Part shown: piece after piece, positions 6,986-55,511 of the stretch
Position numbering within the stretch: the stretch's first letter is position 1
Layout: each line of letters opens with the position of its first letter
DNA from: Candidatus Nitrosopumilus sp.
GTDB taxonomy: Archaea > Thermoproteota > Nitrososphaeria > Nitrososphaerales > Nitrosopumilaceae
Direction: 5' to 3'
Assembly: GCA_029864335.1 (NCBI GenBank)
Contig: JAOTTS010000010.1
Location: forward strand, 1-64,000
DNA: 64,000 nucleotides
Program-made: the position numbers and the translations under genes
Notes under the pieces: model-generated
Told to the model about the DNA's origin: nothing
The model's input: only the letters and a program-made list of their open reading frames with translations
Databases searched by the model: none

Positions 6986-7302
6986 GGTAGTAGATCTGCT
7001 GGCTCCAGTCTAGACGAATAACCCCATTTCAAGGCATACAAGATCCGCCACGTTGACGAGGAAGCGTGGATGCTCCACCTTAGGATTGCTCCCTCCCGGA
7101 CCTCATCCCTTTCGATGGTTCGGTCTTAGAAGTTATCCCTTCGGATATTTCTAGTCCTGCAACCACCCGCCTCGGCGTGATTTCATTTCCGCACACCAAG
7201 CGGGAATTACCCATCTAGAGATTTACCCAACAGTTACTGATCTCTGCATATAGCCGGTTTCAGAACAGGGCACGGCTGGCACCCTAATCCTACCTACTAC
7301 CA
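6986..7302 (-). ncRNA. Signal recognition particle 7S RNA
   Basis: This 317-base segment is much richer in G+C than its surroundings and has no open frame. On the minus strand it carries the SRP helix 8 signature GGTCCGGGAGGGAGCAATCC followed by TAAGG. Its ends pair: 5' TGGTAGTAG with 3' CTACTACC, as in archaeal helix 1, which closes the molecule. The length matches archaeal 7S RNAs (about 300-315). It would bind SRP19 and SRP54 for co-translational targeting. The ends are set by the terminal helix, so they may be off by a few bases. Confidence 0.93.
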
Positions 7303-55154: not shown

Positions 55155-55161
55155 TGAAAGT

Positions 55162-55250
55162 GTGGCGTACGGGTTTTTACACCTGTAAGCGCCATCAAGG
55201 GTTTATTCTTGGACCATTATCTAGATTCAGTCCGGGCGTTACCCTAAACA
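55162..55250 (+). ncRNA. Candidate two-hairpin structured RNA (H/ACA-like)
   Basis: An 89-base G+C-rich island with no open frame. Hairpin 1 (55162-55195): GTGGCG and TACGGGT pair with ACCTGTA and CGCCAT, with a two-base AG bulge. Hairpin 2 (55198-55245): AGGGT pairs ACCCT, an internal loop (8 and 7 bases), then GGAC pairs GTCC. ACA lies at 55248, 14 bases after the upper stem, which is the spacing in archaeal H/ACA guides. A TATA-like TTTTATTTA lies just upstream. Family and target unknown. Confidence 0.5.
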
Positions 55251-55304
55251 CGCGATATTATATGTTATAATTTCTAGTATATAGAGCTGATCTATATAGA
55301 TAAT

Positions 55305-55511
55305 CTACATACGCTCAGATGCGTATAATAATACAATTCCTACTCCCAATATGGCGTACCACTTTAGATTTTTTTTATTCATGAAAATATTTGCTGAGCC
55401 TAAATCTTCATCTTTGTATGTAGTTAAACGAATTTTTCTCATCTCAAAAGCCTGACCTACTAATCCCACCACTAGAAGAATAATTGATACAAAACCCATA
55501 GTCCACTCCAT
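55305..55511 (-). CDS. Small two-helix membrane protein
   Basis: A 68-residue protein with two membrane helices (about 5-21 and 48-65) joined by a basic loop (RKIRLTTYKDED). No family recognised. It is convergent with the aspartate kinase and RNA region and divergent from ilvE. Confidence 0.6.
   Translation of the reverse strand: MEWTMGFVSIILLVVGLVGQAFEMRKIRLTTYKDEDLGSANIFMNKKNLKWYAILGVGIVLLYASERM

Follow-up and report, generated by a model that had tools for sequence, protein, structure and literature searches.

Introduction

H-type pseudoknots of the HLout type that carry an inserted hairpin are found, for example, in the preQ1-II and preQ1-III riboswitches. The kissing loops of HIV-1 DIS and similar elements, for their part, consist of six self-complementary nucleotides flanked by purines, which vary in sequence and yet stay palindromic. 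The Nitrosopumilaceae, the archaeal family to which the present locus belongs, are among the most abundant marine cells and drive nitrification. Homo-oligomeric RNA-only complexes have been described for OLE, ROOL and GOLLD in a paper that mentions kissing loops (PMC12286853), and a study of euryarchaeal non-coding RNAs contains thaumarchaeal start sites in its supplements (PMC5069720). In the papers searched, we came upon no description of the RNA discussed here and no described small RNA specific to Nitrosopumilaceae.

The locus lies in what we call the window, namely the whole stretch of 64,000 nucleotides that was analysed. An earlier note on this DNA had pointed to a G+C-rich island folding on the plus strand into two hairpins at 55162-55250, just past the aspartate kinase gene lysC. 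The island is indeed there, positions 55160-55249 having a G+C content of 0.48 as compared with 0.21-0.39 in the flanking non-overlapping 90-base windows, and both plus-strand hairpins were reproduced, the first of them with 13 pairs. The element sits between two convergent genes, 7 nt past the stop of lysC (plus strand) and about 54 nt from the end of a small minus-strand ORF. This ORF (55305-55511, minus strand) encodes a probable membrane protein of 68 amino acids with no Pfam match, which tblastn detected in 29 of the 33 loci compared here. Elsewhere in the window, at 6988-7299 on the minus strand, Rfam places the archaeal SRP RNA with 106.7 bits.

What we propose is that the element is, very probably, a gene for a small RNA, encoded on the minus strand and having its own archaeal TATA promoter. 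The suggestion in the earlier note of a small RNA was thus supported as to the gene, the strand being the wrong one. The gene would extend over about 93 nt (55162-55254, minus strand; 89 bits with R1, a covariance model built from 22 sequences on that strand), with a 5' end predicted to lie within a few nucleotides around 55254.

Strand assignment and the putative promoter

The choice of the minus strand rests mainly on the promoter, which we know from comparing sequences, with pairing statistics as the weaker evidence. A TATA box is located at 55278-55283 on the minus strand, at -29 to -24 and thus ahead of a conserved YGCGUGUU; it reads TATATA here and TAAATA in most relatives. On inspection, a TATA-like box about 27 bp upstream, at constant spacing, is present in all 17 representatives, which come from varied genera and differ in base composition. 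The A at -26 carries 1.7 bits in this set, and the box is kept even in the most G+C-rich representative (L112). A second set, that of pattern matches from genome_contigs, has a TATA-like hexamer at this place in 111 of the 117 listed, as against 4% of random windows. Some 15 bp above the box there is a palindrome, CTATATAG, in 15 of the 17 representatives; in the window this upstream element is ATCTATATAGAT (55290-55301, minus strand, approximately -47 to -36 relative to the 5' end of the RNA), and the exact ATCTATATAGATCANNTCT occurs a single time in the genome. We rejected the idea that the palindrome is an operator common to other genes, the exact copy being unique and the search with up to 3 mismatches giving 20 matches, the exact site itself included, as compared with 15 for the control. 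A co-evolution of this palindrome with the one in the loop, described below, was likewise rejected: one relative (L113) has an altered loop and an unaltered promoter. A terminator for the small RNA gene was looked for and none was found.

On the opposite side of the element, conservation among the 17 representatives does not extend past the 3' hairpin, and in relatives where lysC is set off by 130-1243 nt (9 of 33 loci) the DNA towards it is not conserved. The TATA-like box that had been noted just upstream on the plus strand turned out to be the last codons of lysC (INFI and stop). Having no conserved upstream promoter, and with conservation ending where the minus-strand RNA would end, the plus-strand reading was abandoned.

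Folding energies and pair counts gave a mixed result, and a choice of strand on either basis was dropped. The plus-strand fold of 55155-55262 has -31.9 kcal/mol (z -2.38, with 4 of 200 shuffles as good), and that of the minus strand (z -1.19, 27 of 200) is unremarkable at -24.1 kcal/mol, so that energy alone would not have picked the minus strand. Over 125 distinct sequences, the mean is -27.7 kcal/mol for the plus and -26.5 kcal/mol for the minus strand, with the minus strand better in 43. Three alignments were used for pair counts: A4, comprising 22 of 29 rows and replacing A2, in which the 3' hairpin was misaligned; A5, with 66 matches; and A6, which contains 46 of the 55 left after 11 matches of A5 had been dropped as weak, antisense or degenerate. 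Cells that are standard pairs on one strand only favour the minus strand by 10 to 4 in A6 and by 43 to 15 in A5, which had been fitted to the minus-strand model, and the plus strand by 19 to 11 in A4, with 15 of the 19 at one internal mismatch site. Wobble pairs favour the minus strand in 2 of the 3 alignments.

Predicted fold and covariation

All features below are on the minus strand. The 5' part of the RNA is a core domain (55197-55254; 82.3 bits and E 3.2e-17 with R2, the core model) that is shared with short paralogs. Its outer helix, S2, pairs AGGGU (55241-55245) with ACCCU (55198-55202); relatives have GC, CG or AU at the second pair, and UA, AU, GU or UG at the first. Enclosed by S2 is helix P3, formed by GGACU (55229-55233) and GGUCC (55211-55215), which is present in the minus-strand fold and in which 3 of 4 counted pairs are changed on both sides. 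Between P3 and S2 runs an A-rich strand, AAGAAUAA (55203-55210), with GAA and AAACC invariant in A6. After the core comes a 3' hairpin with covarying pairs (55163-55194). Its loop reads GTAAAA here and is a GNRA tetraloop in most relatives, namely GAAA, GTAA or GCAA on the minus strand in 21 of the 22 rows of A4, and of the unpaired positions there 40% are A.

The earlier note had named a loss of pairing in relatives as one result that would refute its candidate RNA. The pairing is kept. In A4, 99.0% of cells are paired and the covariation score is 0.128, compared with 0.055 for shuffled alignments (0 of 500 as high) and at most 0.078 for slid ones. In A6, paralogs included, 96.6% of cells are paired, and changes on both sides number 33; shuffled alignments give 8.8 (0 of 500 as many) and slid ones no more than 10.

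A further helix, S1, would join GCGU near the 5' end (55250-55253) to ACGC (55236-55239). Its pairs are formed in 99.5% of cells and nearly invariant, save one wobble and one mismatch (one S1 pair is broken in L006); given this near-invariance, the pseudoknot is a prediction that draws no support from covariation, and in the minimum free energy fold of the window sequence the 5' GCGU is paired elsewhere. Together, S1 and S2 are predicted to make up a pseudoknot of the H type, in which the first loop is U-rich and the last, L3, is the A-rich strand.

Two other readings of the same bases were considered and set aside. In one, hairpin 1 would pair alternatively with the repeated GGCGTTAC, which is not retained in L017 and in sequences of the L024/L025 type. 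The other was a short coding sequence within the RNA; on inspection, ATG-started frames vary among relatives in length and frame and in some are missing.

Comparison with guide RNAs and known families

The element had been thought not to be a tRNA, and neither ARAGORN nor the Rfam tRNA family (RF00005) has a match there. In fact, no Rfam 15 family matches it at the gathering threshold; at E<=10 the only hit is snoR11, which has 18 bits where the threshold is 50 and overlaps the end of lysC, and nothing appears at E<=1 at the element in L100, L101, L103, L107 or L112.

The more specific proposal was that of a box H/ACA pseudouridylation guide on the plus strand, and the observations behind it are accurate: the ACA does lie 14 bases past the upper stem, counted from its GTCC, and the internal loop of 8 and 6 nt can be seen on that strand. 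That said, archaeal H/ACA RNAs contain a K-turn or K-loop bound by L7Ae and have 8-11 pairs above the pocket (PMC4652768). Here, the upper stem (P3) has 4-5 pairs and so does the lower one; inspection revealed no K-turn or K-loop with G.A pairs, and the P3 loop is free of tandem G.A on either strand. An ACA or ANA box 14-16 nt past the upper stem is found on the plus strand only, the one opposite the conserved promoter, and the transcribed strand has ACCCU or ACCCA followed by UGAUGG in that place. The plus-strand ACA is the complement of an invariant UGU within the 5' GCGUGUU of the minus-strand RNA. The matching of the loop strands to rRNA positions beside a uridine, which the earlier note had recommended, was carried out with contiguous pairing required and on the rRNA region of a relative (G013), 16S and 23S rRNA having been searched for in the window's own genome bin and neither detected; no target was better than those of shuffled guides. 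The best plus-strand score was reached by 64% of shuffles with G013 guides and by 82% with consensus guides, and the minus strand gave no targets in the same scan. The absence of an Rfam match adds to these points, and of all the readings considered we regard the H/ACA guide as the least probable, with hardly any weight left to it.

Distribution, paralogs and loss

In BLASTN against 61 relatives, strong matches were confined to the same genus, with chance-level ones elsewhere. The covariance models reach further. Model R1 finds the RNA in 84 of 95 genomes of the genus (55 of 56 high-quality ones). In a sample of 250 genomes from the order it has matches in 78, all listed ones belonging to Nitrosopumilaceae. 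Model R2 finds the core in 191 of 250 genomes of that family (120 of 131 high-quality ones), in 17 of its 22 genera. Across the phylum, 64 of 398 genomes match, 61 of them in Nitrosopumilaceae and the other 3 with E-values of 0.012-0.045, which we count as chance, leaving no convincing match outside the family in this set. Finally, the exact core pattern is present in at least 119 stretches of genome_contigs; among the matches listed, all titles are archaeal and the genera include Nitrosopumilus, Nitrosarchaeum, Nitrosotalea, Nitrosopelagicus and Cenarchaeum. Carriage by viruses was considered and dropped, the pattern having 0 matches in viral_contigs.

The genomic setting is informative about one rival explanation, namely that the element is the structured 3' end or a processing signal of an mRNA, either that of lysC on the plus strand, as the earlier note had suggested, or, on the minus strand, that of the small membrane protein. 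The position in the window, between convergent genes and close behind the stop of each, is what one would expect of such a signal. However, at 9 of 33 loci a gap of 130-1243 nt separates lysC from the element, whose sequence is kept all the same, the small ORF was undetected by tblastn at 4 of 33 loci, where the TATA box is still in place, and paralogs of the core are located elsewhere, away from lysC. We therefore take this explanation to be improbable. The flanking genes for a class IV aminotransferase (ilvE-like) and an amino acid kinase (lysC) are kept at all 33 loci; since the RNA is convergent to lysC and precedes no gene, we make no regulatory claim from its neighbours.

The paralogs just mentioned are second copies in 6 genomes (L099-L104). 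None of them has the 3' hairpin, and therefore the core of about 56 nt is the unit. In 5 of the 6, S2 is CGGU or CCGU with ACCG; L100, L101 and L102 have a TTTAAAATACTAG stretch at the TATA position, and in L100 and L101 TTTTT follows right after the core. As a separate observation, a second stretch near ilvD is conserved in L100, L101 and L102, namely CATGCAAAATCCCG..TTGGTTTCCTTTAGAGTACTTCGAACTCAGGGGGTAGAGGTG, which lies on the same strand as the paralog core and about 80-250 nt downstream of it. It has no Rfam match (L100, L101), is not a tRNA (L100, L101, L102) and is possibly another unlisted RNA.

Judging from its distribution, the RNA is useful yet dispensable, being decayed or missing in some members of the family. 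Degenerate copies are found in place in G011, G101 and G114, and one among them (L116) is without the palindrome discussed below. Decaying copies beside lysC in some genomes of the same genus (L105, L115, L116, L344) make up a natural series of loss. When 8 family genomes without a match were checked, a decayed remnant was seen after lysC in one (G099), and lysC was present and the RNA absent in three (G302, G320, G279). Three others have only a distant LysC homologue (G098, G177, G328) and the last has none (G111); in these four, the locus itself may simply be missing.

The loop palindrome and a possible dimer

The apical loop of P3 contains the palindrome UCUAGA (55220-55225, minus strand). 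A palindrome of 6 nt is present there in all 98 distinct cores, in five versions: UCUAGA in 91, UCAUGA in 4, and CCUAGG, UCGCGA and AUCGAU in 1 each. In a set that overlaps with this one, and for which the loop played no part in the search, 117 of the 118 matches listed have it; the exception (L303) is without P3 sequence and is taken as a chance match, and L225 is cut at its edge. UCAUGA has arisen in at least 2 genera. UCUAGA can be changed at two positions in 135 ways, of which, by simple arithmetic, 9 are palindromic, and no single-change version was seen among intact copies.

A loop that changes and yet stays palindromic points to a kissing-loop homodimer. A hairpin with a 2-nt loop would not need a self-complementary centre and a kissing dimer would. 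In energetic terms, two copies of the window RNA cofold at -61.6 kcal/mol, as compared with twice -24.1 kcal/mol, the predicted dimer being an extended duplex; the duplex energy of UCUAGA is -5.2 kcal/mol and that of GCGCGC -10.9 kcal/mol. On the strength of the loop sequences, we believe that the RNA probably dimerizes through this palindrome.

Palindromes in both the promoter and the loop region could also mark a dyad to which a transcription factor binds, the element then working as DNA and not as RNA at all. Yet the dyad in the loop varies in sequence with its symmetry kept, and the distant strands of S2 and P3 covary, for which double-stranded DNA would have no need. A DNA element is accordingly, in our opinion, highly improbable.

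Discussion

Taking gene, fold and dimer as one joint reading, we consider it reasonably probable. The picture would be as follows. A non-coding RNA of about 93 nt would be transcribed from its own TATA promoter on the minus strand. In its 5' core, helix S2 would enclose hairpin P3, and the 5' GCGU, by pairing with ACGC inside S2, would close an H-type pseudoknot, one groove of which would hold the U-rich strand and the other the A-rich strand AAGAAYAA. A GNRA-type hairpin would come after the core, and two copies would join through the six-nucleotide P3-loop palindrome into a two-fold symmetric RNA.

What would such an RNA do? Most known prokaryotic trans-encoded small RNAs act by pairing with mRNAs, and a trans-acting antisense RNA that pairs by its loops, the palindrome being incidental, is for this reason a natural candidate, all the more as the gene appears independent and has conserved unpaired stretches. 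On the other hand, BLASTN of its own genome detected no extended complementarity, there being besides the RNA itself two short matches (E 0.636); the invariant bases lie inside the fold; and the loop varies in sequence with self-complementarity maintained. We hold the antisense role to be rather unlikely, if clearly ahead of the other rivals. Binding of a partner or ligand fits better, because the invariant bases would be buried in a knotted core and because of the symmetric dimer contact. The function that we tentatively favour, while giving it somewhat less than an even chance, is therefore that of a stable structured RNA which would bind a protein or small molecule via its invariant core, as opposed to an antisense RNA or a modification guide. 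Going one step further, one could imagine an obligate RNA homodimer, that is, two pseudoknotted cores held by a kissing loop, which would serve as a symmetric platform or sensor and might bind a ligand or be catalytic. This is a speculative and at present doubtful proposal; if it were true, the ammonia-oxidizing archaea would have a family-wide RNA class without a described relative in Rfam 15. In any case, a single-locus RNA spread over most genera of Nitrosopumilaceae, with its own putative promoter and a loop that evolves self-complementarily, offers a concrete target for RNA work in these archaea. Its carriers, all of this family, are ammonia oxidizers from both ocean and soil.

How does this RNA compare with known systems? 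With archaeal H/ACA guides it shares the architecture of a small RNA made of stem, internal loop and stem, but it has no K-turn, its stems are short, it has no rRNA target in the scan described above and its ACA is on the strand that lacks the conserved promoter. The likeness to preQ1-II and preQ1-III is one of predicted topology, namely the order of S1 and S2, a U-rich L1, and an L3 that is A-rich and has a hairpin inserted; unlike these riboswitches, however, the element has no Rfam match, is not a 5' UTR preceding an ORF, and possesses a loop palindrome and a 3' GNRA-type hairpin. As in OLE, ROOL and GOLLD, the RNA is proposed to assemble with its own copies, but those RNAs are large and bacterial, whereas the element is archaeal, measures about 93 nt and has a single proposed contact. 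Finally, the loop resembles that of HIV-1 DIS in having six nucleotides flanked by purines that vary and stay palindromic, with the differences that here it belongs to a cellular archaeal RNA and that the UCUAGA duplex is weaker than that of GCGCGC.
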